Both the position numbers and the translations under genes were made by a program. Shown here piece after piece: positions 5,947 through 29,765 of a DNA stretch of 44,857 nucleotides. The notes under the pieces are model-generated. The model had not been told where the DNA came from and did no database searches. It saw only the letters and a list, made by a program, of their open reading frames with translations. Every line of letters starts with the position of its first letter. Positions within the stretch are counted from its first letter, which is position 1. This DNA is from Bacillota bacterium (GTDB lineage: Bacteria; Bacillota; SHA-98; UBA4971), in assembly GCA_012518595.1 (NCBI GenBank), contig JAAYRV010000138.1, positions 1 to 44,857 of the forward strand, in the 5' to 3' direction.

Positions 5947-5969
5947 CTAATATCACCTCTCATCGCCAC

Positions 5970-6569: not shown

Positions 6570-6572
6570 ATT

Positions 6573-7803: not shown

Positions 7804-8749
7804 CCTTCTTCACCTCTCCGAACTTCCTTGGTATGGTGTATCTCTCCACCAGAGCCGTCGCAGCGTTCATTATGAGAATCGCATAACAAACACCTTCGGG
7901 ATATCCTCCGTAAAGCCGTATCAAGGTTACAAGGATGCCGCATCCGACCCCGAAAATTATCTGACCCCTGGGCGTCACAGGACTGGTAACATAGTCCGTA
8001 GCCATGAAAAACGCGCCTAGAAGAAGGCCTCCTGACAGTATGTGAAACACCGGGTCTTGCCCGAAAAGCGCTGTTAGCACAGCGACAGTGCCTACAAAGC
8101 TAAGAGGAATTCTAAGGCTTATATGGCCTCGATAAACAAGGTACGCCGCGCCCACCAGAATGGCAAGGGCTGAAGTCTCACCGATACAGCCTGCAACCTG
8201 TCCTAAGAATAAGTTAATATAAGGCGCCTTAATCTTCATGTACTTCATGAGAACCAGAGGCGTCGCAGTGGTCAGAGCATCAAACCTCGGTATCCAAGCT
8301 GCCTCATAAATCGGCCAACGCCATCTGGTCATAAACACCGGCCATGAAGCTAAGAGAAACGCCCTGCCGATAAGTGCAGGATTGAATATGTTTTGACCTA
8401 ACCCTCCAAAAGTGAACTTGGCTATGGCTATGGAGAATATTGACCCAATAGCCCCTGCCCACAGCGGCAAATCAGGGGGAACAATAAGAGCCAGTAATAA
8501 GCCGGTAACAGCTGCGCTGTAGTCTCTCACCGTTAAGGGTTTGCCACAGAGCTTCTCCAGGGCCGCCTCTGTTATAACCGCTGACCCCACACATACTGCC
8601 ATCATAAAAAGCGCCGGCAATCCGAAAAACCATACACCTGCAAGAGATGCAGGCATGAGCGCTAAGATAACGTCACTCATTATTATCGGAGTTGAGACAG
8701 TCGTGTGTTGGTGAGGCGATGAAGATACTATGAGTCCGCTACCTTCCAT
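7796..8749 (-). CDS. rnfD: Rnf complex membrane subunit RnfD
   Basis: PHQHTTVSTPIIMSDVILALMPA, GGLGQNIFNPALIGRAFLLASWP. Confidence 0.95.
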   Translation of the reverse strand: MEGSGLIVSSSPHQHTTVSTPIIMSDVILALMPASLAGVWFFGLPALFMMAVCVGSAVITEAALEKLCGKPLTVRDYSAAVTGLLLALIVPPDLPLWAGAIGSIFSIAIAKFTFGGLGQNIFNPALIGRAFLLASWPVFMTRWRWPIYEAAWIPRFDALTTATPLVLMKYMKIKAPYINLFLGQVAGCIGETSALAILVGAAYLVYRGHISLRIPLSFVGTVAVLTALFGQDPVFHILSGGLLLGAFFMATDYVTSPVTPRGQIIFGVGCGILVTLIRLYGGYPEGVCYAILIMNAATALVERYTIPRKFGEVKKGA

Positions 8750-8805
8750 TTCCTAATCCCTCCGAACTCCCACTAATCAAAGCTTCCAAAATTCTCATCA
8801 AGAAT

Positions 8806-10161
8806 TCATCCTCGCCTGGCGCTCTGCTTTGCCCTGATTTCAGCTTTCGCTAACCGAATCCCCTGCACTAATCGTCGCCGTGAGGGACAGACAAAGCTGC
8901 AACACCCGCACTCTATACAATCTAGCGCGCCTAGTTTCTCACAATCATCAAACCTTCCGGCTTCCTGATAACCTGATAGCCAAAGAGGCATGAGATTCAT
9001 TGGGCACGCGTCGACACACTTTCCACATCTTATGCATGGGAGCACATCTTCCACGACAACTTCCTTCTCTGAAAGAAGCAGTACCCCTGACGTGCCTTTT
9101 GTGACGGGAATATCTGTAGTATACTGCGCTATACCCATCATAGGCCCGCCGATTATCACCTTTTTCGGAGGAATTTGGATCCCGCCGCACGCCTCAATAA
9201 GGTCATTCACCAAAGCGCCAATGGGAACCATTAGATTCTTCGGTTCTTTTATGCAGCTTCCGGTTACGGTAACAACTCGCCTTACAAGTGGCATGCCGTC
9301 AATAACCGCCTCTTTAACCGCAACAGCGGTACCTACGTTATTTACTACTACACCGACGTCCACCGGTAGACCGCCAGAGGGCACTTCCCTCCCTAAAATT
9401 GCGAAGATCAGCTGTTTCTCCGCACCTTGCGGGTACTTGACTCCAAGAGGCGCAATTTCAATTCCCGGATCTCCCTTTGCAGCTTCTCTCAAGGCAGAGA
9501 TTGCGTCAGGTTTATTGTTCTCAATCCCTATTACCGCCCGTTCCACTCCTATAGCTTTCATAAGCAATCCGGCCCCGGTCACAACGTCAAAAGGACGCTC
9601 TACCATAAGCCTATGGTCAGCGGAAAGATAAGGCTCGCACTCTGCCCCATTGAGCAACAGGGTGTCAAAGGTCTTGCCCGCAGGCGGGGTAAGCTTAAAA
9701 TACGTGGGAAACGCCGCTCCTCCGAGTCCTACTATGCCGGCTTCTCGAATTATGCCGATGAGCTCCTTCTCACCTAGCTCATCAACACTCGTCCGCATCT
9801 TGATGCTCTCATCCGGAGTGCCCTGCCCGTCAGACTCAATCACGATAGAAAGCCCGTCTACACCGCTTGACTGAGGGTGTTTCGCTATAGCTTTGACCTT
9901 TCCTGACACACTGGCATGAACCGGAGCAGTAAGAGCCGCTTTGCTATCCCCTATCTTCTGCCCGACCCTTACATCATCGCCCACCTTCACTAAAGGCTCA
10001 CACGGAGCGCCGGTATGCTGATGAAGAGGGATCACAACCTTCCCGGGAGAAGGCATAGACGTGATTGGTTTCCGAAACGTCGCATCTTTGTTGTAGCGGG
10101 GATGGACTCCTCCTTTGAAAGTCCTAAGTGCCATGTTTTCAAATACTCCCCCTTCCGACAA
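8806..10161 (-). CDS. rnfC: Rnf complex NADH/ferredoxin subunit RnfC
   Basis: TFKGGVHP N-terminus, REAGIVGLGGAAFPT, two CxxCxxC 4Fe-4S motifs. Confidence 0.95.
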   Translation of the reverse strand: MSEGGVFENMALRTFKGGVHPRYNKDATFRKPITSMPSPGKVVIPLHQHTGAPCEPLVKVGDDVRVGQKIGDSKAALTAPVHASVSGKVKAIAKHPQSSGVDGLSIVIESDGQGTPDESIKMRTSVDELGEKELIGIIREAGIVGLGGAAFPTYFKLTPPAGKTFDTLLLNGAECEPYLSADHRLMVERPFDVVTGAGLLMKAIGVERAVIGIENNKPDAISALREAAKGDPGIEIAPLGVKYPQGAEKQLIFAILGREVPSGGLPVDVGVVVNNVGTAVAVKEAVIDGMPLVRRVVTVTGSCIKEPKNLMVPIGALVNDLIEACGGIQIPPKKVIIGGPMMGIAQYTTDIPVTKGTSGVLLLSEKEVVVEDVLPCIRCGKCVDACPMNLMPLWLSGYQEAGRFDDCEKLGALDCIECGCCSFVCPSRRRLVQGIRLAKAEIRAKQSARRG

Positions 10162-14540: not shown

Positions 14541-15176
14541 CTACAGGTAGTAAGCCAGGTGCATCAGGTCTATACTGAGGTCTGTATTATGAACCCTGAT
14601 TTCTTTAGGCGCCTTTAGATGTATCGGTGCAAAGTTAAGAACCGCCTCGATTCCTGCGGCAGCACACTTATCCATTACGGCTTGCGCCTCCTCAGCAGGA
14701 ACTGCAATAACAACCATTCTGAACCCAAGCTCCAGGGCCTTGGCGTGAAAGGTATCTATGAGATCTATCGGCACTCCGTTGATGAGTTCTCCCAATACTT
14801 CCGGATCAGAATCGAATAAGGCTACCAACTTGAGATGGAAGTCTTTTTCCGTAGCATACTTTTGAGTAATATACCTGGCAATTGCATGGCCCAGGTTTCC
14901 TACGCCTATGATTCCTACCTTTATCTCTTTGTCCAGATTGAGAATACGTTTGAGTTCATCCCGCAGGACCGCAATTTCATATCCAAGTCCCTGCTTACCG
15001 AAGGAACCGATAATACTCAGATCCTTTCTGACCTGAGCGGGACTGACACCTGACTTTTCACCCAGTTTAAAGGAGGAAATCACATTCCCATAAAAGTCCT
15101 CAGAAAGGTTCTCAAGAACTCGAAGATATATAGGTAGGCGCCGAATAACCACATCCGGAATACTCTGTTTTCCCAC
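14541..15176 (-). CDS. rex: Redox-sensing transcriptional repressor Rex
   Basis: IPDVVIRRLPIYLRVLENL, KDLSIIGSFGKQGLGYE, VGIIGVGNLGHAI; GTG start after AAGGAGGAGG. Confidence 0.96.
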   Translation of the reverse strand: MGKQSIPDVVIRRLPIYLRVLENLSEDFYGNVISSFKLGEKSGVSPAQVRKDLSIIGSFGKQGLGYEIAVLRDELKRILNLDKEIKVGIIGVGNLGHAIARYITQKYATEKDFHLKLVALFDSDPEVLGELINGVPIDLIDTFHAKALELGFRMVVIAVPAEEAQAVMDKCAAAGIEAVLNFAPIHLKAPKEIRVHNTDLSIDLMHLAYYL

Positions 15177-15333: not shown

Positions 15334-15544
15334 CTAAGTATGAGTTCATTAGTTTTCGCTCGTTGTCCGAGGTCTTAGGTTGCCGGTGATTGCAACGAGG
15401 GGTGTCAAAATTCGGCTACTAGCCTACGGGCCGGATTTTGTCAAGGCGACCCGCTTGGGGAGCCGTCCCCGAGTGCAACACCGGCAACCCAGCACAGTAC
15501 ATGCACTTTTTAGAACTGGCGATCACTTATGGCGATCTACTTAG
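15334..15544 (-). repeat. Interspersed repeat, copy 1 (longest, with nested palindromic insert)
   Basis: CTAAGTATGAGTTCATTAGTTTTCGCTCGTTGTCCGAGGTC ... GGCGATCACTTATGGCGATCTACTTAG; ends are inverted repeats CTAAGTA/TACTTAG; related to 29766-29835 and 34256-34358. Confidence 0.8.
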
Positions 15545-17298
15545 TCACAAGCGTTTTGAGACATAGGATAACAGGATACAGGATACTTGCTTCGCTCCGT
15601 ATAGTGCGTGTGCAAGAGCCGGTGCGAAACTTCGCCAAGCGGTTCCATAAGGAATTCCTCATAAAGCTGCTTGATTGCAGGATTCTCATGGGACTTCCTT
15701 AGCGGAAGAAGCCTGTCTGCAACATACAGAGCATTGCCGCGAATTCCTCTTATCTCCATATTGGTGGGTATAGGCTGGCCTCCACCACCAACACAACCGC
15801 CGGGACATGCCATTATCTCAATAAAGTGATATACCCTCTCTTTGTCACGAACCAGTTCCAGAATCCTCTTGGCATTAGCCAGGCCGTGAGCGACTCCGAC
15901 CCTGACCTTCATATCACCTAACATGACCTCTGCCTCTTTGATTCCCTCAAGGCCTCTGACTTCTTGGAAATCAATACTAGGAAGCTCCAGGCCTGTGGCT
16001 ACTTCATAGACTGTCCTGAGTGCAGCCTCCATCACCCCGCCGGTCGCGCCAAAAATCGCAGCTGCGCCTGTGGAAATACCCATCGGCGAATCATGCTCCT
16101 CATCAGGAAGATTTGCAAAATCAATGCCTGCCTCTCGGATCATCCTTCCCAGCTCTCTCGAGGTAAGCACCACATCCACGTCTTGGTATCCTGACGAGGC
16201 CATCTCAGGGCGCTCCGCTTCAAACTTCTTGGCTGTGCATGGCATGAGGGAGACTGAGAAGATATCCTTCGGATCTATCCCCGAATGCCTCGCATAATAT
16301 GTTTTCACAAGAGCGCCGAACATTTGCTGTGGAGATTTGCAGGTAGAGACATACTCCAAGAGATCCGGGAAGAAGTGTTCTCCAAACTTTATCCAACCCG
16401 GGCTGCACGAAGTAATAAGTGGGAGAGGACCCCCTTCCTTGATCCTCTTCAGAAGCTCATTGCCTTCTTCAATAATCGTCAGGTCAGCAGTGAAGTCCGT
16501 ATCCATGACTTTGTCAAAGCCAAGCCTCCGGAGGGCTGCAACAAGTTTCCCGGTGAAAATCTCACCCGGTGGAAAGCCCAGTTCCTCGCCGATACTGACT
16601 CGGGTGGCAGGAGCAGTCTGAACAACTACGTGCCTGGTAGGATCTGCAAGCGCCCGGAAAACCTTTTCTGTATCATCCCGTTCTGCTATAGCGCCTACGG
16701 GACACGCATGAATGCATTGTCCACAAAGGGCACATGCCACATCGCCTAATTCTCTCTCACATGCAGGCGCCACAACTGTGTCTACCCCTCTCCCCACAGG
16801 CCAGAGGACAGCGGCAGCTTGCACATCCCGGCACATAGCTACGCATCTCCGACAGGATATGCATTTATCAGGTTCGCGGACTATTGCGGGGGTTGATTCA
16901 TCCAGCGGGATGCCACGAAGTTTTCGTTCAAAGCGAACCTCCCTGATTCCCAACCTTTCAGCGAGCGCCTGAAGCTCGCAATTGCGATTTCTGATACATT
17001 GGAGACAGTCAGTAGGATGATGAGCAAGGATTAGCTCGAGGTTTACCCGTCTGGCAGATCGCACATCAGGCGTATTTGTGCGGACCACCATGTTATCCCT
17101 TACCGGAAAAGCGCACGCAGGTTGAAGTAGTTTCTCTCCTTCTACCTCTACAACGCAAATACGGCATGTGGCTTGGACTTCGAGATCAGGATGATGGCAC
17201 AGGGTGGGGATATCAACCCCAAGCTTTCGAGCTGCTTCAAGAATTGTGGTACCGGCATCCACCTGAACTCTCAGGCCGTCTATCGTTACCATTGCCAC
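15541..17298 (-). CDS. hydA: [FeFe] hydrogenase catalytic subunit (HydA/HndD type, group A)
   Basis: N-terminal 2Fe-2S, H-x-C 4Fe-4S (HHPTDCLQCIRNRNC), two 4Fe-4S, H-cluster motifs TSCSPGW, MPCTAKKFE, EIMACPGGCVGGGGQP. Confidence 0.95.
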   Translation of the reverse strand: MAMVTIDGLRVQVDAGTTILEAARKLGVDIPTLCHHPDLEVQATCRICVVEVEGEKLLQPACAFPVRDNMVVRTNTPDVRSARRVNLELILAHHPTDCLQCIRNRNCELQALAERLGIREVRFERKLRGIPLDESTPAIVREPDKCISCRRCVAMCRDVQAAAVLWPVGRGVDTVVAPACERELGDVACALCGQCIHACPVGAIAERDDTEKVFRALADPTRHVVVQTAPATRVSIGEELGFPPGEIFTGKLVAALRRLGFDKVMDTDFTADLTIIEEGNELLKRIKEGGPLPLITSCSPGWIKFGEHFFPDLLEYVSTCKSPQQMFGALVKTYYARHSGIDPKDIFSVSLMPCTAKKFEAERPEMASSGYQDVDVVLTSRELGRMIREAGIDFANLPDEEHDSPMGISTGAAAIFGATGGVMEAALRTVYEVATGLELPSIDFQEVRGLEGIKEAEVMLGDMKVRVGVAHGLANAKRILELVRDKERVYHFIEIMACPGGCVGGGGQPIPTNMEIRGIRGNALYVADRLLPLRKSHENPAIKQLYEEFLMEPLGEVSHRLLHTHYTERSKYPVSCYPMSQNACD

Positions 17299-17334
17299 CT
17301 TCTATCACTCCTTCCGTCATGGAGCAAAATGAAG

Positions 17335-18945
17335 TCATAGCCTGCATGTCCCGGTGGGACACAGCTTGTCCTTGATGTGCGCTTCAAACTCGTCTTTGAA
17401 ATACTTGAGCATGGTCATAATAGGTATAGGCGCTGATTGCCCCAACCCGCAAAGTGCGGTCTTTTGCATAGCATGACTTAAGTCCTCTAAGACTCTAAGA
17501 TCTTCATACGTTCCGTTGCCGATTGCGATCTTCTCAACAATATGGTGTAATCTTGCTGTTCCTTCCCTGCACGGAACGCATTTCCCACACGATTCCCTGA
17601 CAAAGAACCTCATGAAAGATTCTGCAATATCAACTATGCAGTGGCTGTCGTCCATTATCAGCAGGGCGCCTGACCCAAGAGCGGATCCCATCTCAGGGAG
17701 AGTGAAGTAGTCCATAGGCACATCCAACATCTCACCGGGGAGACATCCACCGGAAGTGCCTCCGGTCTGCGCCATCTTAAAGCTTCGCCCTCCCGGGATC
17801 CCGCCGCCAATCTCGTAGATGATCTTGCGGAGGGTAATACCCATGGGCACTTCAATAAGACCCTTGCTGTTAATGTCTCCTGTCATAGTAAACACCTTTG
17901 TTCCGGGACATTTCGGAGTACCGAACCCCCTGTACCATACAGGTCCGTTAAGTATTATCCGAGGGATATTGCCCAACGTTTCCACGTTATTTACTACTGT
18001 CGGCATTCCTAAGAAGCCATGGGTGCCCGGATACGGGGGCTTAACCCTGGGTTCCCCACGTCCGCCTTCCATGGACTCGATGAGTGCAGTTTCCTCGCCA
18101 CACACGTAAGCCCCAGCGCCTTTTCTCACCTCAATATCGAAGGAGAAACCTGATCCAAAGATGTCGCGGCCCAGCAATCCCATGGCTTTTGCTTGCTCAA
18201 TTCCTTTCGTTATCCGCTCGATGGAAAGAGAATACTCACCTCTTATGTACACGAAGCCTCGCTCTGCCCCAACTGCATACCCGGCAATAGCCATGGCCTC
18301 AAGAATACTATGGGGATCTCCTTCCAGGATCAAACGATCCTTAAAAGTCCCTGGCTCGCCTTCATCAGCATTACATATTATGAACTTCTCATCAGCTACT
18401 GCGTTCGCTGTGAAACTCCACTTCAAACCGGTGGGAAACGCAGCTCCGCCTCTGCCTACAAGTCCTGACTGTTTCATAACTTCTATGACATCGCAAGGTT
18501 CCATTTCAGTGAGACACTTTGCCAAAGCCCGATATCCGTCACGGGCAATATATTCCTCAATAGAGGAAGGATCGATAATCCCACAGTTGCGCAGGACAAT
18601 CCTTTCTTGGCACTCCAGATACTCAGGTTCCTTGTAACTTACGATCCCGGCAAGACGGCCTTCGCCTGTAAGGCGCCGCACAATTCTGCCCTTTAGAAGA
18701 TGCTCCTCAACAATTTCCGAGACATCTCGCACCGCCACTTTCTCATACAGAGTCCCTTCAGGGTAAACCACGATTACAGGGCCAAGGTCACACGGACCCA
18801 GACAACCTGTTTCCACTACTCTTACCTCTTCATCCAGACCCCGACGTTTCAATTCCTCTGTCAATGCGTCACGGACTGCCTTGCATCCTTCAAGAATACA
18901 TGGAGTTCCACCGCATACCAGGACATGTGAACGGTAGAATCGCAC
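17335..18945 (-). CDS. hydB: NuoF-like NAD/FMN-binding hydrogenase subunit HydB
   Basis: N-terminal thioredoxin-like 2Fe-2S, GLVGRGGAAFPTGLKW, FIICNADEGEPGTFKDR, ESCGKCVPCREGTARL. Confidence 0.93.
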   Translation of the reverse strand: MRFYRSHVLVCGGTPCILEGCKAVRDALTEELKRRGLDEEVRVVETGCLGPCDLGPVIVVYPEGTLYEKVAVRDVSEIVEEHLLKGRIVRRLTGEGRLAGIVSYKEPEYLECQERIVLRNCGIIDPSSIEEYIARDGYRALAKCLTEMEPCDVIEVMKQSGLVGRGGAAFPTGLKWSFTANAVADEKFIICNADEGEPGTFKDRLILEGDPHSILEAMAIAGYAVGAERGFVYIRGEYSLSIERITKGIEQAKAMGLLGRDIFGSGFSFDIEVRKGAGAYVCGEETALIESMEGGRGEPRVKPPYPGTHGFLGMPTVVNNVETLGNIPRIILNGPVWYRGFGTPKCPGTKVFTMTGDINSKGLIEVPMGITLRKIIYEIGGGIPGGRSFKMAQTGGTSGGCLPGEMLDVPMDYFTLPEMGSALGSGALLIMDDSHCIVDIAESFMRFFVRESCGKCVPCREGTARLHHIVEKIAIGNGTYEDLRVLEDLSHAMQKTALCGLGQSAPIPIMTMLKYFKDEFEAHIKDKLCPTGTCRL

Positions 18946-18968
18946 GAGTCTCTACCCCCTCCCAGATG

Positions 18969-19448
18969 TCACCTGTATTTCTCAAGAATAACCGGAATAT
19001 CATCGGGCGTGAGGTTGCCGTACACTTCATCATCAATCATTATTGCCGGAGCCACACCACATACTCCGAGGCAGCTGGTGTGTTTGAGAGTAAACTTACC
19101 GCAACTTGTGGTACCTCCCATGGGAATTCCTAATTCTTGACTTAGAACATCAATTAACGTGTCTGCGCCCAACAGGTGGCATGGCGCGTTTTCACATACT
19201 CTGATTACGTGTTCTCCCACGGGTTCAACAGAAAAAAGGGTATAGAAGGTAGCGACACCATATACCTTTCCCAGTGGCATATCAAGGTTCCTTGCGACCT
19301 CAATAAGCGCATTCTCAGGAAGATATCCAAACGCCCTCTGAACATCATCCAAGATAGCGAGAAGTTCGTGTTCGCTCCGTCCATGCCTTGCGACGATCTC
19401 CTTGATAGTCGATTCCAAACTGTCTAAGCTTGCAGGCATAACGTCCAT
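18969..19448 (-). CDS. hydC: NuoE-like 2Fe-2S hydrogenase subunit HydC
   Basis: LLAILDDVQRAFGYLPENAL, VYGVATFYTLF, CENAPCHLLGA, TSCLGVCGVAPAIMID. Confidence 0.93.
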   Translation of the reverse strand: MDVMPASLDSLESTIKEIVARHGRSEHELLAILDDVQRAFGYLPENALIEVARNLDMPLGKVYGVATFYTLFSVEPVGEHVIRVCENAPCHLLGADTLIDVLSQELGIPMGGTTSCGKFTLKHTSCLGVCGVAPAIMIDDEVYGNLTPDDIPVILEKYR

Positions 19449-19485: not shown

Positions 19486-19848
19486 TTAACCGGTAGGAAT
19501 TACCCACTCCCCCACCACTTGGCCGTTCACAACGTGACTGGCCACGATCTTGCGTGCTTTCTCCTTGGAAACCTTACCGTAAGTGACTTTCTCCGTACCC
19601 GGCATCATTATACTGATAATGGGTTCTTGTTCACACAATCCGATACAACCTGTCTGAGTCACAATAACATCTTGAATATTACGCCGCGCCAGCTCATCCA
19701 TAATGGCTGAAAGGGTTTCACGAGCGCCTGCTGCAATGCCACATGTACCCATACCCACCACGATTCTTGTGGTCTCCTTGCCTTCTCTGAGTCTGGTCAT
19801 TGCCTGAGCTTGCTTCCTAATTCGTTCCAAATCTTCAACTGTTTTCAT
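19486..19848 (-). CDS. Thioredoxin-like (2Fe-2S) ferredoxin
   Basis: VVGMGTCGIAAGA...VTQTGCIGLCEQEPIISI; start trimmed to ATG at 19848 after GGGAGGTG. Confidence 0.88.
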   Translation of the reverse strand: MKTVEDLERIRKQAQAMTRLREGKETTRIVVGMGTCGIAAGARETLSAIMDELARRNIQDVIVTQTGCIGLCEQEPIISIMMPGTEKVTYGKVSKEKARKIVASHVVNGQVVGEWVIPTG

Positions 19849-19991
19849 TTGCGACACCTCCCAAGACTTGCCCTTCAACTCTCTGGTTAATCCCATACCT
19901 CCACTAACCGATAAGCTCTTTTCCAGAATCCCCTACGTTTTGAATTTAGACCTTATTGTTCCACTTCCTACCTACTTACTAGCTTACTACT

Positions 19992-20038: not shown

Positions 20039-20494
20039 TCAAGTGTCTGCACTATCGCCTCTTTCGGCTCCGTTCTTACTGACAATTCCCACAACTCTTG
20101 CCTGGTACTTTGCTATGGCCGGACGCTTGCTGTATGCAGCAATCCCCAGATATGAGAGCCCCAGGAATCCGAAGCCTAAGACGGCTGCAAGCAGAGATGC
20201 TATGTCCCGCCGACCTAGATGAGATGCGAATACAGTGCCTAAGTAAAGACCGAACAGGAGGAAGATAAGGGGTATTATGTAAACAATCACCGCCGCCCTG
20301 ACTACCTGAGCCGCTTCCAGCTCCAGCTCGACTTCATCGTGTTCCTTCGCGCCTACGGTATTTGTCGCGACAGCAATAATCCTGTCTCTTGATCCAAACC
20401 CGCACACCTTGCACCTGGTACATTCATCTCTCCGAAATATCTCAACCTTAGCCATATTACCTGCAGTTTCAATTACTCTGCCTAGCTCTCTCAT
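20039..20494 (-). CDS. RseC/SoxR-reducing-type membrane protein
   Basis: RELGRVIETAGNMAKVEIFRRDECTRCKVCGFG plus two TM helices; start trimmed to ATG 20494 after GGAGG. Confidence 0.8.
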   Translation of the reverse strand: MRELGRVIETAGNMAKVEIFRRDECTRCKVCGFGSRDRIIAVATNTVGAKEHDEVELELEAAQVVRAAVIVYIIPLIFLLFGLYLGTVFASHLGRRDIASLLAAVLGFGFLGLSYLGIAAYSKRPAIAKYQARVVGIVSKNGAERGDSADT

Positions 20495-20531
20495 GTTATT
20501 TGCATCCTCCGAAACGTTAATCGCGACCGGT

Positions 20532-21077
20532 CTAGGATGCCTGGACATCCTTTAGGCCTTCCTTGATTACATCGCGTATCACAGGCACTGCAGACGGACT
20601 TCCGATAGGTATGTCCCCGAGTATACCCTCTAGTGTGTCTGTACTGCACGCAAACTTAGCGTTCCCTCTAACATGTTGATATTTGAAGTTTACATGAGGA
20701 TTGCATACTATAAGAAGAGCCATTGTCTCCGCTATATCTCCAAGAGGCGCCCTGTCAATACTACTGATCCTGAAATTGGCTTCAACCTGTGTCCCCTGCC
20801 CTACTGCAGATTGGATTTCCAAATCTCCTCCCGCCATTCTGGCAGCTTCCCGAAACAGCGGGATTCCAAGGCCCACTCGCCGAGTCTTCCTGGAAGTAAC
20901 AAAGGGATTGGCAATACTGTCTAGAATTGCCTCTGGAATTCCAGGCCCGTCATCTTCAATGGTTATGGTCAAAAGATCAGAGGATTCATCCTCCGAGATG
21001 GTTATGCCTATCGTATCAGCCCCTGCTTCTATAGAGTTTTGCGCTATGTCCAATATGTGAAGAGACAGCTCTCGCAC
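20532..21077 (-). CDS. Stand-alone histidine-kinase-like ATPase (HATPase_c), no visible DHp domain
   Basis: LHILDIAQNSIEAGAD (N box), EDDGPGIP, GLGIPLFREAARMAGGDLEIQS (G boxes). Confidence 0.85.
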   Translation of the reverse strand: MRELSLHILDIAQNSIEAGADTIGITISEDESSDLLTITIEDDGPGIPEAILDSIANPFVTSRKTRRVGLGIPLFREAARMAGGDLEIQSAVGQGTQVEANFRISSIDRAPLGDIAETMALLIVCNPHVNFKYQHVRGNAKFACSTDTLEGILGDIPIGSPSAVPVIRDVIKEGLKDVQAS

Positions 21078-21116
21078 ATAATCCCTCCTGTTTCATGTGC
21101 CTACAGGCAACGCCTG

Positions 21117-21866
21117 TCACATAGTTGCACACCGAGGCGTAACGTATCGTCCCTTTGCCAATCTCAAAGCGAGCAGAATTTCATCCCACATTGCGCCCTC
21201 CATAAAAAAGTCGGTATAACCTGCTATCTCGCTCAACCTGTGAGCATCTGAAGATTTGACAAGAGGAAACCGGGCGATGGATGGAAATCTCGTTCTGGCC
21301 GTATCCGGGCTGATGTTTCTTGATATTTCCATACAGCAAAGCTCGAGTCCGTCCGGGACAAACCCAAGGTTCCTAATGAGGCTGAATGACGGCCTATCTA
21401 CGTGTGCAGGGATAACCAGGCCGTCCAATTCGCTGACACGGCGACTCACGTAGTCAACGCTCATAGATGTGGAGCAAAGAAGTAAAGTGCATAATTTACC
21501 TGTTACTCTGCCACAAGAATCCATTATCAGTTGTTCCCCGAACCTCGCTTCGTCGTTTTCAACTTCAGGTAACGCAGAATAGACTTCTTCCTGCCAGATG
21601 TTTAAGGCGTCCGGGTGTCGGAAAAATGTGAGCACATGCACATCCTCTACAGTCTGGACTTCAATTCCGCCAAGTACAGTTATTCCCTCAGCTGCCCCTG
21701 CTTCTGCCACTGCTCGAACATTTTCCGCAGAATTATGATCACATATGCCGATAATCTCCAAACCCTTGACTTTTGCAGCCGCAATTATCGCAGGCGGAGT
21801 CATCTCATTCTCTGCACACGGGGAAAGAGCGGTGTGGATATGGAGGTCAGCAGGAAGAAACCGCAC
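21117..21866 (-). CDS. PHP-domain metal-dependent phosphoesterase
   Basis: ADLHIHTALSPC, GICDHNSAENV, VIPAHVDRPS, KSSDAH. Confidence 0.88.
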   Translation of the reverse strand: MRFLPADLHIHTALSPCAENEMTPPAIIAAAKVKGLEIIGICDHNSAENVRAVAEAGAAEGITVLGGIEVQTVEDVHVLTFFRHPDALNIWQEEVYSALPEVENDEARFGEQLIMDSCGRVTGKLCTLLLCSTSMSVDYVSRRVSELDGLVIPAHVDRPSFSLIRNLGFVPDGLELCCMEISRNISPDTARTRFPSIARFPLVKSSDAHRLSEIAGYTDFFMEGAMWDEILLALRLAKGRYVTPRCATM

Positions 21867-21884
21867 CTTGTTCTCCTCCCCTTT

Positions 21885-22247
21885 CTACTCCCTGACCCTG
21901 CCTCTAATGCCCATACGGTATAAGATGCCTACAACTTCAAAAGAAGGTTTCGATGTAGTCAGTAAAGGGATACCTTCATCATCAGCTTTAATCACAGTGT
22001 CATGAGCAGGACCGGCTCCTCCTGCCACTATGATTGCGGAAAGACCTGTAAGGGCTCCGACAGCTACGATATTCTGATGTATCTGGACGGTAACCCAGAC
22101 ATCGCCCTGCCCTGCTCCTGCCATGACATCACTTAGAAGGTCTGACGAGTATCCAAATGCTACCTTGTTGTCCAGCTGTCCTGAGCCGGCTGCTACTTCG
22201 CACTCAAGCTCGTCAACAATATCCCGCACCCTCACCCCATGACTCAT
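21885..22247 (-). CDS. DRTGG-domain protein (second paralog)
   Basis: VRDIVDELECEVAAGSGQLDNKVAFGYSSDLLSDVMAGAGQGDVWVTVQIHQNIVAVGALTGLSAIIV; start trimmed to ATG 22247. Confidence 0.75.
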   Translation of the reverse strand: MSHGVRVRDIVDELECEVAAGSGQLDNKVAFGYSSDLLSDVMAGAGQGDVWVTVQIHQNIVAVGALTGLSAIIVAGGAGPAHDTVIKADDEGIPLLTTSKPSFEVVGILYRMGIRGRVRE

Positions 22248-22251
22248 ACCA

Positions 22252-23613
22252 TCACTCCCCGGGCTTTGAGAAAGCACTGTCTTCCTTGCTGTCTTCCTTT
22301 AGAGCAGGTGGGCTCTTCTTTGCCATCTCCAGGAGCTGCTCTGCAAGGATTTCGATTTCTTCACGCAGTTTGAGAATACAGTCAGTGTCCACTGCCAATC
22401 CCTGGACGATATCCTCAGCCAGGGCACGACAATTAGGACTGCCACATGAACCGCAGTCCAGCCCGGGCAACTCGCTGACCACTTTTTCTATCATTTCAGC
22501 TTTGGTAATCGCCCGGGACACATCTTGATCAAGCCTGAAAGCAGGCACTGCCACAATATCAGGTTTTATCGTAAACTCACCCAGGCGCTCCTCGAGATTA
22601 AGGTCTTCGGTAAGCTCATCACGTAATTTCGGACGCGTCTCTGATTTGTCCACGAGAGCCTCCAGGTTCATCCGACCTATGAACGGGTTTATTACGGTGA
22701 GAGCACCGCCGACACATCCGCCTGTGCACGCCTGGGCCTCGACAAACTCTATATCTTGCAGCTTGCCCATTTCCAGTTGCTCCAGAACATCGATTACATT
22801 ATGTATTCCATCTACTACGAGGGATTTGGAAATTCCGGCGGCAATGCGCTCTCCCCCGGAGCGTCCCCAACCCACGCCCACCGGCGATGCTTTGAGTTCA
22901 GGATGAGAAGGTGAAATCTCCGGAAGTCTCTTCACAATCTCGCCGTAGACATCAGAGATGGATATGGCGCCATCTACAGGGAAGCTCCCAAGTTTGTTGG
23001 CTTCCCGAACCCACGTCACCTTCGCCGGACACGGAGTGATAAAGAAAGCGCCGATGTTCTCTTTCGGGATACGAAGCTCCGCGGCTTTCATCTCCTTAGC
23101 CAGCTTACCGGAGCAGGCCATAGGTGAATCCACCGGAATCAAGTAATCTATCAATGCAGGAAAACGCACCTGAATCAATCTTACTACAGCAGGACAAGCT
23201 GCTGAAATCATAGGCGCCTTAGCGCCTTGCTTCTTAAGGTACTCTGTGGTTAGGAAAGTAGCTATGTCTGCCCCGTAGGCTACTTCGAAGACATCATCAA
23301 ATCCCATATCCATGAGGGCGGCCAGCACTCTTCGGCGATCAACTTCCCTGCCAAACTGGGAATATAGGGCCGGAGCAGGCAGTGCAATAGTGTGCTCGAA
23401 TTCTTTCAGTCTCGACAGTGAATCTGTGATCGCTGTTTTTGCATGGTTGTCACAAATCCTGATACACTCACCGCAGTCAGTGCATCTTTCTGCGTTGATC
23501 CTTGCCTTGCCGGCTCTCACTCTAATAGCTTCAGTCGGGCAGTTCTTGATGCACCTGGTGCATCCGCGACACTTCTCCTCAATCAGCAATACTGAGTGGA
23601 ATAACTGGCCCAT
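22252..23613 (-). CDS. [FeFe] hydrogenase-like protein with N-terminal 2x[4Fe-4S] and C-terminal FeS domain (group D / putative sensory type)
   Basis: CRGCTRCIKNCP, CTDCGECIRICD; H-domain motifs ISAACPAVVR, TPCPAKV, EAQACTGGCVGG; C-terminal GLDCGSCGSPNCRALAEDI. Confidence 0.85.
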   Translation of the reverse strand: MGQLFHSVLLIEEKCRGCTRCIKNCPTEAIRVRAGKARINAERCTDCGECIRICDNHAKTAITDSLSRLKEFEHTIALPAPALYSQFGREVDRRRVLAALMDMGFDDVFEVAYGADIATFLTTEYLKKQGAKAPMISAACPAVVRLIQVRFPALIDYLIPVDSPMACSGKLAKEMKAAELRIPKENIGAFFITPCPAKVTWVREANKLGSFPVDGAISISDVYGEIVKRLPEISPSHPELKASPVGVGWGRSGGERIAAGISKSLVVDGIHNVIDVLEQLEMGKLQDIEFVEAQACTGGCVGGALTVINPFIGRMNLEALVDKSETRPKLRDELTEDLNLEERLGEFTIKPDIVAVPAFRLDQDVSRAITKAEMIEKVVSELPGLDCGSCGSPNCRALAEDIVQGLAVDTDCILKLREEIEILAEQLLEMAKKSPPALKEDSKEDSAFSKPGE

Positions 23614-23615
23614 GA

Positions 23616-24044
23616 TCAGCTTCCTTCTTTCGCAGGTAGGTTTATTACTGCTCTGATACTTGTCCCGGAACCTACTTGCGACGTGACTTTGAGTTCATCG
23701 GAATACCGCTTCATGTTAGGGAGGCCCAAACCTGCCCCAAATCCCATCTCTCTAATATCCTCCGACGCAGTGGAGTAACCAACTTGCATTGCCAAGGCAA
23801 TATCGGAAATACCGGGACCTTCATCATCAGCATAGATAATGACTCGCTCAGGTAATATATCAATGCCGACAGTGCCACGGTACGCGTGTATTACTATGTT
23901 CATCTCCGCCTCATACGCCACTATACCCACACGTCTGGCGGTCTCTGCGTCAATACCTATTTGGCGGAGCGCCCTCTTGGTTTTTGCTGCCGCCCCTCCT
24001 GCAGCTTGAAAATCCCTCCCTGAGACATGATACTCAAGGCGCAT
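23616..24044 (-). CDS. RsbW/SpoIIAB-like anti-sigma serine kinase-type ATPase
   Basis: YEAEMNIVIHAYRGTVGIDI, DDEGPGISDI, GFGAGLGLPNMKRYSDEL; start trimmed to ATG 24044. Confidence 0.85.
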   Translation of the reverse strand: MRLEYHVSGRDFQAAGGAAAKTKRALRQIGIDAETARRVGIVAYEAEMNIVIHAYRGTVGIDILPERVIIYADDEGPGISDIALAMQVGYSTASEDIREMGFGAGLGLPNMKRYSDELKVTSQVGSGTSIRAVINLPAKEGS

Positions 24045-24438
24045 CCTGTGCTCCTCCCACAGCACGTGGCCAGTGACGCCAACCTGGCAACCCTGCCGTA
24101 TAAAGAAGGCCGGCTGACTCGTACAGCGGGTAACGGGTGCATAGGATTGGGAGACCCAATTCGCGACTCATATCAATAATGTCAGGAGTGGGTCGCTTAC
24201 CGCGAACAAAGACAATAGCAGCCAGATCCACCATCTCTGCTGCACGGATAATCTGGGGCGACACTAATCCGGTGAGGACAAGCATTCTCTCTTTTGTAAA
24301 CGCCAATACGTCACTTATGAGATCGCATCCGCAACCTGCCTCCACATGCAAGTCTAACTTATCCTCACCTGTCAGGACTTCCGCCTCAAGAATTCTGGCT
24401 ACATCCCTCAGTTGCACCTGCTTCAACCCTCCGTCCAA
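24034..24438 (-). CDS. DRTGG-domain protein (first paralog)
   Basis: LRDVARILEAEVLTGEDKLDLHVEAGCGCDLISDVLAF...VLTGLVSPQIIRAAEMVDLAAIVFVRGKRP. Confidence 0.78.
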   Translation of the reverse strand: MDGGLKQVQLRDVARILEAEVLTGEDKLDLHVEAGCGCDLISDVLAFTKERMLVLTGLVSPQIIRAAEMVDLAAIVFVRGKRPTPDIIDMSRELGLPILCTRYPLYESAGLLYTAGLPGWRHWPRAVGGAQDAP

Positions 24439-24447
24439 AACCGTAGT

Positions 24448-24984
24448 CTACCTCTGGATGATCACAGAGTATCCTTCTGCTTCAAGCTCCGAAGCAAGGG
24501 CTTCAGCATTAGCTTTGTTTTGAAACGCACCCACTTGAATTCTATACGGTGTTACAGATGTGACATACACAGGATATCCTGCTTCTTCCAGTTTACGCCC
24601 GAGTTCCTCTGCTTTACTTCTTTCATAGAATTCTCCAACCTGGACTCGGTAAAGTACAGACTCCTCCGCAACCTCGCGGGTTCCAGGTGTAATATCCGTC
24701 GTGTCCAGGGTAACAGCAGCAGGTTGCCCCGATGGACGAGGATCCGGCTCTTCCGTCGACTTAGGAGAAATTGGGCTGGGTTGTGAGTCACTACTGTCCA
24801 GCAAACCTGATCCGGTTGTCGGGGCCTGACTGGAACGCGGCGCTTGCAAAGACGACGCGCAATAACTCAAGACGTACTTTCCGAGCAAGACACCAAGCCC
24901 TACCATAGCTGCAAGCGTCACGACCCACACCAATACAAGCCATAGAGATTGCTCTTTGGATCTACCTTTTCGTTCCGGCATCAT
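24448..24984 (-). CDS. SPOR-domain membrane-anchored protein
   Basis: Single N-terminal TM, Pro/Ser linker, tandem SPOR-like halves YRVQVGEFYERSKAEELGRKLEEAGYPVYV / YRIQVGAFQNKANAEALASELEAEGYSVII. Confidence 0.85.
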   Translation of the reverse strand: MMPERKGRSKEQSLWLVLVWVVTLAAMVGLGVLLGKYVLSYCASSLQAPRSSQAPTTGSGLLDSSDSQPSPISPKSTEEPDPRPSGQPAAVTLDTTDITPGTREVAEESVLYRVQVGEFYERSKAEELGRKLEEAGYPVYVTSVTPYRIQVGAFQNKANAEALASELEAEGYSVIIQR

Positions 24985-25051
24985 ATACCCCTCCTTAGCG
25001 TCATCTACCTAGTAATATTACCTCGCGCCGAGCCGGTTTCCTTCTAAACAT

Positions 25052-27040
25052 TTAAGAGACAGTCTCCCATGGAAGACGCATATGAAGATCGAGTCTCATT
25101 AGCCTGGTTGGAAGGGAGCTTCCAACACTTTCCGCCACGTCGCGGCCTACACATGCAAATATCAAAGGGAGACCCAACTCATCGGCAAAAGACTCCGAGA
25201 TCTCGACGCCTCGGAGCACATCATCTCTTGTGGTCTCCCGACCTAAATGAGTGTTGCTCACAATCCCTGTAGCAGAAAGCCCGGAGACAGTCTCAATTGA
25301 TTCAAGAATCGCCTTGGCGCCGTCTATATCCTGAGTAAAAGGACGATTCGTGTTCAAGACAAAATACATGTCATAACCTGCCTGTTCAAATCGGCGTCTG
25401 AATCCGGCAAGCGTCCTGGCGCCTACAGGATCTCCCCCCACATCAAACACTACTTGAAGTGTGGGATCCTGAAAAGCTCGAAAAACGGCGGGAGAAATCG
25501 AAGGAAGATCCGCAGCCTCCATACCGGGCCCGGATGAAATTACGTCTATTCCAAGGTCTTTCATGGCTCCTGCGACTTCACGGGATCTGAAATACGGGTT
25601 TACAATATCAAAGTCAACAATAGCAACTTCTCTGCCTCGGGACCGTAGGTGTTTTGCATAATTTAGCGCAACCTCAGTCTTTCCGGATCCAAAAGCGCCG
25701 ACAAATACCACTACCCTGTGGCTCATAGGGAATTTCCCTGCCCGCTGCAGAAGGTATCTGCGCACATTGCCCACAAGATAGATAGAGCCCGAAACTACCA
25801 ACGCTCCGTCCTCGCCTGCTTCTTCCAACCCTCTCGCCACAGCCTGGAACGGATCTGTGATAGCCTCAGCGCGAAGCCCTTTCGTCTCCGCAATATCTCG
25901 AAGCACATAAGGGTCTATCACACCGCTTCTTGATGACAAGGCGCGTGTGGCGATAAAAGTACGGGCGAATCTTGAGATTTCACATACCATCTTCTCGACG
26001 GGCTTGTCCTTGGACAGACCAACTACAGCCGTAACAGGGCGCTCCCCAACTATATCAGGAATCGCCTCCCTAAGTTTTCGAATCCCGTCTGCATTATGAG
26101 CGCCGTCAACCAAAACCAGGGGCTCCCTCTGCAATACTTCCAGCCGTCCCGGCCATGTGACAAGCTGTAAGCCGGCTGTGAGTGCCTCGTCTCCTATATC
26201 TACCCCGAGCTTTCGCAGGGTTTCTATTACACCTACCGCAACAGCGGCATTCTCTACCTGGTGTGCCCCAAGTAGAGGAATATGGAGGGAATCGTAGACT
26301 CGATTTCCTACCTTGACTGAAAAGGACTGACCCTCTGTCGACCAACACTTCCTTTGGCATTCTATGTCTCTACCGAACACTGTTGTAGGGGCAAATCTCC
26401 GAGCGGCTGTTTCTTCTATTACTTCAAGTGCAACAAGTTCCTGACGTCCTACAACAACGGGGACGCCTTCCTTGATAATTCCGGCTTTTTCTCCGGAGAT
26501 CTCCTCCAGTGTGTTCCCGAGTATGCCTGTATGCTCCAAGCTGATATTTGTGATGGCTGAAACCTTTGGCACAACAATATTGGTTGAGTCTAATCTGCCG
26601 CCAAGACCTACTTCGACTACGGCAAAATCCACTTTCTCACGGGCAAAGTAGAGAAAAGCCAGGGCGGTTCCTATTTCGAACTCAGTTGGGGGGCCCAGTT
26701 CAGGGTCATGCGCTATTTTCTCAAAAATAGGTTTTAGCTCTGTCATTAGACGGGCTAATGCCGCTTTTCCGATTTGACGCCCCCCGACCATAATCCTCTC
26801 AGTGTACGATGCAAGATGCGGGGATGTATAAAGGCCTACGCGAAATCCCGAAGCCCTGAGTACAGACTCGATCATAGCAGCAACTGACCCTTTTCCGTTA
26901 GTCCCTGCCACATGCACTATGGAAAAGCTCTGTTCAGGTTTGCCCGTTTCACGTGATAAGGCAAGACTGCGCTCGAGCCCTACGTGTATGCCAAATTTGC
27001 CGAGCTCACGCAGAAAGCCCATAGCTTCGTCATAATTCAT
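25052..27040 (-). CDS. folC: Folylpolyglutamate/dihydrofolate synthase fused to a MinD/ParA/CobQ-like P-loop nucleotide-binding domain
   Basis: N-terminal VHVAGTNGKGSVAAMIESVL, FEIGTALAFLYFA; from residue ~439 MSHRVVVFVGAFGSGKTEVALNYA, VDFDIVNPYFRSRE, VVFDVGGDPVGARTL. Confidence 0.85.
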   Translation of the reverse strand: MNYDEAMGFLRELGKFGIHVGLERSLALSRETGKPEQSFSIVHVAGTNGKGSVAAMIESVLRASGFRVGLYTSPHLASYTERIMVGGRQIGKAALARLMTELKPIFEKIAHDPELGPPTEFEIGTALAFLYFAREKVDFAVVEVGLGGRLDSTNIVVPKVSAITNISLEHTGILGNTLEEISGEKAGIIKEGVPVVVGRQELVALEVIEETAARRFAPTTVFGRDIECQRKCWSTEGQSFSVKVGNRVYDSLHIPLLGAHQVENAAVAVGVIETLRKLGVDIGDEALTAGLQLVTWPGRLEVLQREPLVLVDGAHNADGIRKLREAIPDIVGERPVTAVVGLSKDKPVEKMVCEISRFARTFIATRALSSRSGVIDPYVLRDIAETKGLRAEAITDPFQAVARGLEEAGEDGALVVSGSIYLVGNVRRYLLQRAGKFPMSHRVVVFVGAFGSGKTEVALNYAKHLRSRGREVAIVDFDIVNPYFRSREVAGAMKDLGIDVISSGPGMEAADLPSISPAVFRAFQDPTLQVVFDVGGDPVGARTLAGFRRRFEQAGYDMYFVLNTNRPFTQDIDGAKAILESIETVSGLSATGIVSNTHLGRETTRDDVLRGVEISESFADELGLPLIFACVGRDVAESVGSSLPTRLMRLDLHMRLPWETVS

Positions 27041-27044
27041 ATCG

Positions 27045-29741
27045 TCACTCCTTGAGCTCGTTTAGACGTTTCTTAAGCCTTTCCTCTTTTTCCCGGGATT
27101 CTGCTAGTTTCTCTCTTTCTTTCTCCACAATCTCTTCCTGTGCTTTTTCCAAGAATCCTCTATTGCTAAGCTTCTTCAGAGATCTGGAAGCTTGTGCCTG
27201 TGTGGCAATTAAGTCCTTCTCTAATTTCTGAATTTCAACATCAAGGTCAACAATTCCTACAAGCGGCACATATATTTCGGCACCGGATATGATTTGAGAT
27301 GCAGCCTTCTCCGGCCGCATGTCCAGGCGCTCTTTCACCGTCATACCGGAAAGTCCGGAAAGCGCTGTCACAATCTGGTCATTGTCCGTCAGTATCTTGC
27401 CGGTTGTGCTGTCAGCGACAATAATGACCTCGATTCTCTTATGCGGAGGCACATTCATTTCTGAACGGATGTTTCTAATAGCCCTGACTGTATCCATTAA
27501 GACGGCCATAGCATCCTCAGCCAAAGGATCGTCCATTCGGTCCTCAGGTGTAGGCCACGGGGCAACCATAACGCTTCCTTCGGTCTCAGGCAATAGACCC
27601 CATATAACCTCAGAGATAAAAGGAATGAACGGGTGGATGAGCCTCAGCGCACAACCGAGGGTCTCCCATAAAACGTACTGGGCTGTCTTCCGAGCTTTTA
27701 CATCACTCGAATACAGCCTTGTTTTTGCGATTTCAATGTACCAGTCGCAGAATTCGTCCCATATGAAATTATACAGGGTTCGAGCAGCCTCACCAATTTC
27801 GTAGTCCTTCAGGTTGCGTGAAACTTCTCTGGAAATTTTGTTGGTTCTGCTTCTTATCCACCTATCTGCCAGTGTTAAATCTAAGTCTATGTTTGAATCG
27901 CAAGACCGGCCGTCTGCAAATGAATCAAGGCAAAAGTCATCAAGATTCATGATAGTGAATCGTGACGCATTCCATAGCTTGTTCGCGAAGTTTCTGCTTG
28001 CCTCCAGCCTCTCTTTTCTGAATCTCATGTCATTACCCGGGGTATTACCCATAACCAGAGTAAACCTAAGCACGTCTGCCCCATATTCGTCAACTACCTC
28101 CAGGGGATCTATTCCTGTGCCAAGGGATTTACTCATCTTCTTGCCTGTTGACGCCCTCACCAATCCGTGAATCAACACGTCGTGAAACGGCACATCTCCC
28201 ATGAACTCCAGGCCCATCACTATCATTCTGGCCACCCAGAAGAAGATAATGTCATAGGCAGTCACAAGGACTGAAGTAGGGTAGAAATGCTTAAGATCAG
28301 GAGTCTCGTCAGGCCACCCCATAGTGGAAAACGGCCACAACGCAGAAGAAAACCAAGTGTCCAAAACATCCGGATCCTGGGTTAGAGCGGACCCTCCACA
28401 CTTCCTGCATTCAGAAGGTGCATCCAAAGATGCAATTACCTCACCGCACTCGTTGCAGTACCATACCGGAATCCTATGGCCCCACCAGAGTTGCCTTGAT
28501 ATGCACCAATCATGGACGTTTTCCATCCAATTGAGATAAACCTTCTCGAATCTCTCAGGCACGAACCTTATTTTACCTTCTTCGACAGCCCTGATTGCCG
28601 GTTCCGCAAGGGGTTTCATTTTCACAAACCACTGTTTCGAAACCAGAGGCTCGACAGCAGTACGGCACCTCTGACAATGTCCTACAGAGTGAGGTCGTTC
28701 CTCAATCCTTGCCAAGAGCCCTGAATCTTGCAGCCGAGATACTACTTGGTCACGGCATTTATACCTGTCCATGCCTTGGTACTTCCCTGCATTTTCCGTC
28801 ATTTGGCCATTCTCGTCAATAACCTTGACCAAAGGCAAAGAGTGCCTGAGACCGATCTCGAAGTCATTTGGATCATGTGCAGGCGTGACCTTCACAGCCC
28901 CTGTCCCGAATTCAGGGTCTGCCCATTCATCTGCAATAACCGGTATTTCCCTGTTCATAATCGGGAGGATTACACATCTGCCAATGACGTTCTTATACCG
29001 TTCATCACCGGGATTCACAGCAATTGCGGTATCACCCAGCATTGTCTCAGGACGTGTTGTGGCAACTTGCACATAGCCTTCTCCGTCGGAGAAAGGGTAA
29101 TTAATGTAATACAAGGCGCCTTCGGTCTCCTCATGTTCAACTTCAAGATCTGATAGAGACGTATGACACCTGGGACACCAATTCACAATGTAGGCACCTC
29201 TGTATATAAGCCCCTTCTCATAGAGACTTACGAAGACCCGGCGGACAGCTCTGGAAAGACCTTCATCCATTGTAAACCGTTCCCTGTGCCAATCACAGGA
29301 CGCGCCGAGCCGTTCAAGCTGCTTCCTGATTTCCCCGCCGTACTTGTGTTTCCATTCCCATACACGTTCTATGAACTCTTCCCGTCCTAAGTCATGCCTG
29401 GTCAAGCCTTCCTCTGCAAGGGCAGCCTCTACCTTGACCTGTGTGGCGATACCTGCATGGTCCGTTCCTGGAATCCATACAGTGTTGTGCCCGAGCATTC
29501 TATGCCACCTTACCAAAATATCTTGGAGAGCGTTATCAAGTGCATGCCCTATGTGCAAAGCCCCTGTAACATTCGGCGGCGGGATCACTATACAGAAAGG
29601 CTCTTCGGAAAGATCCGCCTCCTGATGAAAAAGTCCGGCACGAACCCATCTCTCATAAATCTTATCCTCGAATTCCAGAGGATTGTAAACCGTAGGCATA
29701 TCAATTGCCAAATTTTGAGTAGTCTTGTTGGGATCTCTCAT
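27045..29741 (-). CDS. valS: Valyl-tRNA synthetase
   Basis: PPPNVTGALHIGHAL, KMSKSLGTG, C-terminal coiled coil; start trimmed to ATG 29741 because AAAGGAGG lies inside the listed ORF. Confidence 0.97.
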   Translation of the reverse strand: MRDPNKTTQNLAIDMPTVYNPLEFEDKIYERWVRAGLFHQEADLSEEPFCIVIPPPNVTGALHIGHALDNALQDILVRWHRMLGHNTVWIPGTDHAGIATQVKVEAALAEEGLTRHDLGREEFIERVWEWKHKYGGEIRKQLERLGASCDWHRERFTMDEGLSRAVRRVFVSLYEKGLIYRGAYIVNWCPRCHTSLSDLEVEHEETEGALYYINYPFSDGEGYVQVATTRPETMLGDTAIAVNPGDERYKNVIGRCVILPIMNREIPVIADEWADPEFGTGAVKVTPAHDPNDFEIGLRHSLPLVKVIDENGQMTENAGKYQGMDRYKCRDQVVSRLQDSGLLARIEERPHSVGHCQRCRTAVEPLVSKQWFVKMKPLAEPAIRAVEEGKIRFVPERFEKVYLNWMENVHDWCISRQLWWGHRIPVWYCNECGEVIASLDAPSECRKCGGSALTQDPDVLDTWFSSALWPFSTMGWPDETPDLKHFYPTSVLVTAYDIIFFWVARMIVMGLEFMGDVPFHDVLIHGLVRASTGKKMSKSLGTGIDPLEVVDEYGADVLRFTLVMGNTPGNDMRFRKERLEASRNFANKLWNASRFTIMNLDDFCLDSFADGRSCDSNIDLDLTLADRWIRSRTNKISREVSRNLKDYEIGEAARTLYNFIWDEFCDWYIEIAKTRLYSSDVKARKTAQYVLWETLGCALRLIHPFIPFISEVIWGLLPETEGSVMVAPWPTPEDRMDDPLAEDAMAVLMDTVRAIRNIRSEMNVPPHKRIEVIIVADSTTGKILTDNDQIVTALSGLSGMTVKERLDMRPEKAASQIISGAEIYVPLVGIVDLDVEIQKLEKDLIATQAQASRSLKKLSNRGFLEKAQEEIVEKEREKLAESREKEERLKKRLNELKE

Positions 29742-29765
29742 AGCCTCTTGTCCTCCTTTCACACA

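Follow-up and report, generated by a model that had tools for sequence, protein, structure and literature searches.

A putative intracellular H2/redox signalling module around a group D-type [FeFe] hydrogenase, conserved in gene order across several phyla

Through which proteins could a group D [FeFe] hydrogenase pass on what it senses? The question is raised by a 44,857-nucleotide stretch of DNA from a Bacillota bacterium (contig JAAYRV010000138.1 of GenBank assembly GCA_012518595.1; "the window" below means this whole stretch), in which the gene of a group D-type hydrogenase, here called HydS, lies in a compact minus-strand run ahead of the genes of a trimeric hydrogenase. That group D hydrogenases are sensors encoded near a kinase and a bifurcating hydrogenase is already published (2010-2020), and the sensory proposal on which the initial annotation of this locus drew is in print, with a kinase link and a place beside HydABC (PMC3561251, PMC3608648, PMC8163306). 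Carere and co-workers (2012), citing Calusinska (2010), classed group D as sensory from nearby protein kinases and bifurcating hydrogenases (PMC3561251), and in a Thermoanaerobacter genome study of 2013 the bifurcating hydrogenase was reported to have a histidine kinase and a group D-like hydrogenase encoded upstream (PMC3608648). A 2026 study of the group D hydrogenase TamHydS considered finding the interaction partners of this group critical for understanding its signalling (PMC13104023). We propose, with a probability of about one in two, that the genes at this locus encode an intracellular H2/redox signalling module around the group D hydrogenase. What the analysis shows directly is the genes themselves, their conservation and order, natural fusions, intact active-site residues, and co-occurrence across genomes. 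The genes concerned are the following.

24034-24438, minus strand: D1, DRTGG-domain protein of 134 amino acids (Pfam PF07085, 38 bits)
23616-24065, minus strand: W, SpoIIAB/RsbW-like GHKL ATPase, probable Ser/Thr kinase (PF13581, HATPase_c_2, 37 bits)
22252-23613, minus strand: HydS, group D-type [FeFe] hydrogenase (PF02906, Fe_hyd_lg_C, 126 bits; Fer4; PF04060 C-terminal iron-sulfur (FeS) domain, 44 bits)
21885-22277, minus strand: D2, second DRTGG-domain protein (PF07085, 20 bits, sub-threshold; assigned by family alignment)
21117-21866, minus strand: PHP, PHP-domain metal-dependent phosphoesterase of 249 amino acids (PF02811, 36 bits)
20532-21077, minus strand: HK, GHKL ATPase without a DHp domain and with a conserved C-terminal domain of about 70 amino acids (PF02518, HATPase_c, 65 bits)
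20039-20548, minus strand: RseC/MucC-like membrane protein (PF04246, RseC_MucC, 83 bits)

All seven open reading frames of 20039-24438 abut, overlap or nearly do so, in an operon-like manner, and lead into ferredoxin, hydCBA and rex, as the initial annotation had it. Its domain calls (two DRTGG proteins, an RsbW-like ATPase, an [FeFe] hydrogenase-like protein, a PHP phosphoesterase, a DHp-less HATPase and an RseC-like protein) likewise agree with Pfam and NCBIfam, that of D2 by way of the family alignment.

We collected HydS loci from 40 of 100 genomes, the sample being the window's own genome with relatives from the same phylum, and from a genome scan that gave 80 further named loci, including some from Atribacteria, Spirochaetes, Syntrophorhabdales and an Armatimonadetes bin; of the HydS sequences in the 110 loci, 109 differ from one another. 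Neighbours were counted with family hidden Markov models (HMMs) built from the module genes, the denominators being informative loci. W lies upstream of HydS in 104/107 loci and adjoins it or is fused to it in 105/107; among the three loci without a separate W, one carries a W-HydS fusion (L137) and two (L053 and L093) are truly without W. D1 lies upstream of W in 93/104 loci, to which three D1-W fusions are added, D2 downstream of HydS in 96/105 loci plus one fusion, and PHP downstream in 91/101. The commonest order is D1-W-HydS-D2-PHP-hydC-HK-Fd-hydB-hydA (Fd, ferredoxin). A shared gene order recurs in more than 100 loci, so that the arrangement is not a product of chance. Among 63 loci with the full set of four core partners and sufficient flank, hydB was downstream and co-directional in 48, divergent in 5 and not within reach in 10, so that the core holds together while its surroundings change. 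D1-W-HydS-D2-PHP is thus a real conserved module across several phyla.

Presence and absence across the 100 genomes told the same story. Counted as both present, HydS only, partner only and neither, HydS and W gave 40/0/2/58, and HydS gave 38/2/3/57 with D1 and again with HK, while the PHP subfamily occurs in 38 of the 100 genomes, every one of them HydS-positive. Fisher's exact p was about 1e-20 or less for these co-occurrences, a value that ignores shared ancestry and is descriptive only. The initial annotation had staked its relay on conserved co-occurrence, and D1, W, D2, PHP and HK do track HydS, both by position and across genomes. Partial losses are also informative: one genome (G024) keeps D1-W-D2-HK with HydS and PHP gone, another (G051) keeps D1-W beside RseC and rex without HydS, and a third (G020) keeps D2 with hydC-HK-Fd-hydB-hydA. 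Because these losses preserve pairs, gene content points to D1:W and D2:HK as two probable pairs flanking HydS. In a fourth genome (G052) the module is decaying, with HydS fragmented and a W remnant fused to D1.

HydS itself has, by Pfam, two N-terminal [4Fe-4S] sites, an H-domain and, at its C-terminus, an FeS domain; the same scan found no PAS domain in it. Features listed for group D are loss of the C299-type cysteine, replacement of M353 and M497, and retention of the H-cluster cysteines (PMC8163306). None of 110 HydS homologues departs from the H-cluster cysteines or from the four C-terminal FeS cysteines. In place of the C299-type proton-relay cysteine, 105/110 have A or S, T or S stands at the M353 position, and L, Q or N is common at the M497 position. 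The proton-path residues S249, E252, D265 and E289 of TamHydS correspond to S252, E255, D268 and E292 of the window HydS, conserved in 68/110, 105/110, 98/110 and 110/110 homologues, respectively. In a tree, the 110 sequences formed one clade apart from 3 group C and 38 group A sequences, with a support of 0.57 after rerooting and with the named TamHydS sequence outside the set. Given that layout and residues match those described for TamHydS (PMC8163306, PMC10407848), we file HydS as a probable group D (M2e) enzyme, an assignment made from these two features rather than from a tree of named references. HydF and HydG were not found in three draft genomes (G000, G001 and G004) and were found in most close relatives or other members of the genus; the absences are probably assembly gaps, and with the window's own draft assembly (G000) affected in this way, these proteins were dropped as evidence on H-cluster assembly.

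The intact H-cluster ligands, together with the catalytic competence of TamHydS (PMC8163306), are what one would expect if HydS were no more than a slow ferredoxin hydrogenase of the ordinary kind, and its neighbours a housekeeping block kept by descent. We consider this the least probable account of all, given that the core stays intact across phyla despite changing flanks, that its genes have fused repeatedly, and that their co-occurrence is tight.

These fusions also bear on which proteins might touch. A single-chain D1-W fusion occurs in Tepidanaerobacter and two relatives, which form one lineage; in L137 HydS is fused to W on its N-terminal ferredoxin side, in L044 it is fused to D2 on its C-terminal FeS side, and PHP is fused to HK in L122 and G026. 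As far as gene fusion is a guide, this suggests that W and D2 may contact HydS at opposite ends. The initial annotation had taken the hydrogenase-like protein as the input of a signalling relay; the W-HydS and HydS-D2 fusions fit that placement, whereas the direction of the signal and the phosphotransfer are matters that we infer.

What kind of protein is W? Its nearest NCBIfam model is SpoIIAB, at 53 bits against an equivalog cut-off of 135, and it scores 20-25 bits against RsbW models with cut-offs of 145-155. SpoIIAB is also its best solved relative, and the predicted fold of W matches both SpoIIAB and RsbW. E52 and N56, conserved in 105/105 homologues, correspond to the catalytic pair E46/N50 of SpoIIAB, and the GHKL box residues D81, G83, G85, G110 and G112 are invariant in the same 105 sequences. 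No STAS antagonist or sigma factor was found near W in the window or in the neighbourhoods scanned, genes elsewhere in the genome lying outside that scan. W could instead be an anti-sigma factor that frees a distant sigma factor or STAS antagonist, with HydS setting whether W is free or bound and D1 acting as a scaffold or ligand sensor. The closeness of SpoIIAB in sequence (53 bits) and fold speaks for this idea; we hold it to be unlikely, as W falls far below the SpoIIAB/RsbW equivalog cut-offs and the loci examined have no regular sigma or STAS neighbour.

D1 and D2 share a conserved aspartate and serine. D39 and S42 of D1 are present in 95/95 homologues and stand where a helix of the predicted fold begins; AF_1212, a DRTGG protein of solved structure, is a Foldseek match to D1 (template modelling score TMt 0.78) and lacks, in the alignment, both the D and the S of this D-x-x-S motif. 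The serine at the start of the D1 helix recalls the phosphorylated serine of SpoIIAA, an analogy that we treat as a lead only. D2, at 20 bits against a PF07085 cut-off of 25, belongs clearly to the DRTGG family by family alignment; its D46 and S49 are found in 98/98 homologues, W61 and T63 are also invariant, and its true start may lie a few codons downstream. In PHP, the ligands H9, H11, D43, H44, E69, H77, H155, D207 and H209 are invariant or nearly so where aligned (94 sequences), and its NCBIfam matches, which include nucleoside 3',5'-bisphosphate and cyclic-phosphate phosphatases, have low scores that are all far below cut-off. Such intact ligands and phosphatase matches, along with a solved pyrophosphatase in which DRTGG adjoins nucleotide-binding CBS domains, might mean that PHP and the DRTGG proteins make or break a small phosphorylated signal (a nucleotide or phosphosugar), to which the ATPases would respond and HydS would couple the redox state. 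With no signal synthase as a regular neighbour, and with PHP family scores so far under their cut-off, we regard this as very unlikely.

The genes of the trimeric hydrogenase and their near neighbours in the window are these.

19486-19896, minus strand: HydD-like [2Fe-2S] ferredoxin of thioredoxin-like type, belonging to the bifurcating hydrogenase operon (NF041612 at 48.6 bits, under the cut-off)
15541-19448, minus strand: hydC, hydB and hydA, trimeric [FeFe] hydrogenase, probably electron-bifurcating (NCBIfam and open reading frame list)
14541-15176, minus strand: rex, NADH/NAD+-sensing repressor, a recurring neighbour (from its translation)

In most genomes with hyd genes, HK is encoded inside the hydrogenase operon, between hydC and Fd/hydB. 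The Pfam scan found no HisKA/DHp phosphoacceptor domain in HK, only a HATPase_c-type one, and its predicted structure (predicted local distance difference test score, pLDDT, 90; predicted template modelling score, pTM, 0.86) is a GHKL ATPase core followed by a C-terminal domain, for which the best Foldseek matches were topoisomerase (topo) VI-B and MutL/PMS2, and also histidine kinases. With no DHp domain and with these MutL/topo VI matches, a role for HK as a histidine kinase is unsupported. Of the two ATPases that the initial annotation had called kinase-type, W retains the SpoIIAB-type kinase residues, whereas HK matches MutL/topo VI as well as it does histidine kinases. The RseC-like protein, which the initial annotation had also placed in the module, is present in only 13 of the surveyed loci, and we rejected it as a member in favour of a lineage-specific neighbour.

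The position of HK within hydC-HK-Fd-hydB-hydA in most loci, and its resemblance to MutL/topo VI clamps as much as to kinases, would also be consistent with a device that has no signalling output and whose two ATPases, DRTGG proteins and PHP act on HydABC or HydS themselves, by assembling, repairing or gating them. Genome content argues the other way. The HydA-type hydrogenase family is found in 72/100 genomes against 40/100 for HydS, additional HydA clusters that lack the module are present in the genome of the window itself, and 10 of the 63 loci have the core with no hydB in reach. Since HydA is widespread without it, the module is dispensable for making and maturing a bifurcating hydrogenase, and we judge a purely conditioning role to be quite unlikely.

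Returning to a signalling module, we can outline how it might work. HydS would react with H2 or equilibrate with ferredoxin, and its state would gate W, the SpoIIAB-like ATPase/serine kinase, which may contact the N-terminal ferredoxin-domain side of HydS. W would then bind or phosphorylate D1 at its invariant D-L-x-S type motif, D1 filling the role that the STAS proteins SpoIIAA and RsbV have in classical partner switching. At the C-terminal FeS side of HydS, D2 would be paired with the HK ATPase, and because HK is usually encoded within hydC-HK-Fd-hydB-hydA, this second arm could tune the bifurcating hydrogenase HydABC, the likely regulated target. PHP would take phosphate off D1 or D2, or off a small phospho-ligand, and so reset the switch. 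Substrates and output, like the signal's direction, are placed here by inference. If this outline is right, the module would represent a new class of bacterial H2 signalling: a hydrogenase would have direct control over a SpoIIAB-like serine kinase with a DRTGG rather than a STAS substrate, and a PHP phosphatase and a further DRTGG-GHKL pair would complete a two-armed switch on the bifurcating hydrogenase; we put this stronger claim forward tentatively, at well under even odds.

Several observations weigh against a signalling role of this kind. The C-terminal cluster of TamHydS was not reduced under 1 atm H2 (PMC13104023). The two genomes that keep D1-W without HydS (G024 and G051) show that this pair can have some role of its own. 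The AlphaFold model of a natural D1-W fusion has good domains, a pTM of 0.50 and no confident packing of D1 against W. HK may not be a kinase, as its predicted structure is as close to MutL/topo VI as to histidine kinases. Finally, the regular neighbours in the loci examined include neither a sigma factor nor a STAS protein nor a response regulator, so that the output is unseen. Minimal W-HydS loci (L101, L124, L127 and L128) offered no output candidate either, their neighbours being unrelated or single cases (CheW, a PAS-histidine kinase/OmpR regulator, transporters).

How does the proposed module compare with known systems? With the SpoIIAB/SpoIIAA and RsbW/RsbV systems, W shares the fold and GHKL boxes of SpoIIAB and its catalytic pair, E-x3-N. 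Unlike in those systems, no STAS antagonist or sigma factor adjoins W, which stands next to a DRTGG protein and for which a hydrogenase is the candidate input. In Ralstonia, the regulatory [NiFe] hydrogenase HoxBC senses H2 and acts with HoxJ and HoxA through a kinase on hydrogenase genes (summarised in PMC5707799), a logic like the one we propose here; that system differs in that its metal centre is unrelated and that it works through a PAS-histidine kinase and a response regulator, and none of its parts is homologous. Group C sensory hydrogenases, which occur as PAS/histidine-kinase fusions and as hfsABCD / R. albus HydS with a serine phosphatase (PMC5707799, PMC11837493), similarly tie a sensory-type [FeFe] hydrogenase to phospho-signalling and to other hydrogenases, but they carry PAS or kinase in the same chain, whereas group D has separate W, D1, D2, PHP and HK proteins. 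The putative sensory group D (M2e) hydrogenase TamHydS and loci such as Cthe_0335, Csac_1857 and Teth39_1463 share with HydS the protein type, the domain order, the loss of the C299-type cysteine, E252/E289/D265-type residues and the C-terminal FeS domain; as at this locus, a trimeric hydrogenase is encoded downstream and a kinase-like ATPase close by. D1, D2, PHP, the near-obligate W and the fusions were not defined in the papers on those loci (PMC8163306, PMC10407848, PMC3561251) and are defined in the present survey. We found no earlier description of the DRTGG, PHP or fusion evidence in the open literature, subscription papers lying mostly outside this search, so that an earlier mention is possible; to our knowledge, the complete module, the fusions and the pairings are new.

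The survey nominates partners for group D hydrogenases, with W ranked first, and the natural fusions could be expressed as ready-made complexes. A DRTGG protein as kinase substrate, if true, would extend partner switching beyond STAS proteins. Because fermentation and syntrophy are governed by the partial pressure of H2, a defined sensor module for this gas, present in many anaerobes, would be of consequence for the microbiology of the rumen, the gut, biogas and biofuels.

The full minus-strand run in the window reads valS, folC, a SPOR-domain gene, D1, W, HydS, D2, PHP, HK, RseC, the [2Fe-2S] ferredoxin, hydC, hydB, hydA and rex; Rfam and tRNA scans returned no matches. The genes valS and folC, with the SPOR gene (24448-29762), precede the module in many Clostridia-type genomes, including HydS-less ones, and because this context is kept also in genomes that lost HydS, the chromosomal address of the module after valS-folC looks old. 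Rex HMM matches lie close to the module in many relatives. Further downstream on the same strand is a complete-looking rnf cluster (5116-10161), which together with RseC (20039-20548) recalls the RsxABCDGE/RseC SoxR-reducing system; in G051, an RnfC-like gene follows further on after D1-W-RseC-Rex.

Other arrangements of sensory-type hydrogenases were met during the survey. CheW directly precedes a W-HydS pair without D1, D2 and PHP in a single case (L101, 8065-10314). In L093 (7177-11083), a group D-like HydS has neither W nor D nor PHP; two DUF364 (heavy-metal chelation) genes flank it, and a MinD/ferredoxin-type ATPase is encoded close by. In the window's own genome (G000, contig C135, locus L068, 2052-5757), a group C-type hydrogenase carries PAS, HisKA and HATPase domains in the same chain and is directly followed by an NtrC-type sigma-54 response regulator. 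Beyond hydA of a group D module (L046, 268-2493), a hydrogenase H-domain and FeS domain are fused to a sigma-54 activator AAA+ domain and a Fis-type helix-turn-helix, a one-protein candidate for an H2-responsive transcription factor.

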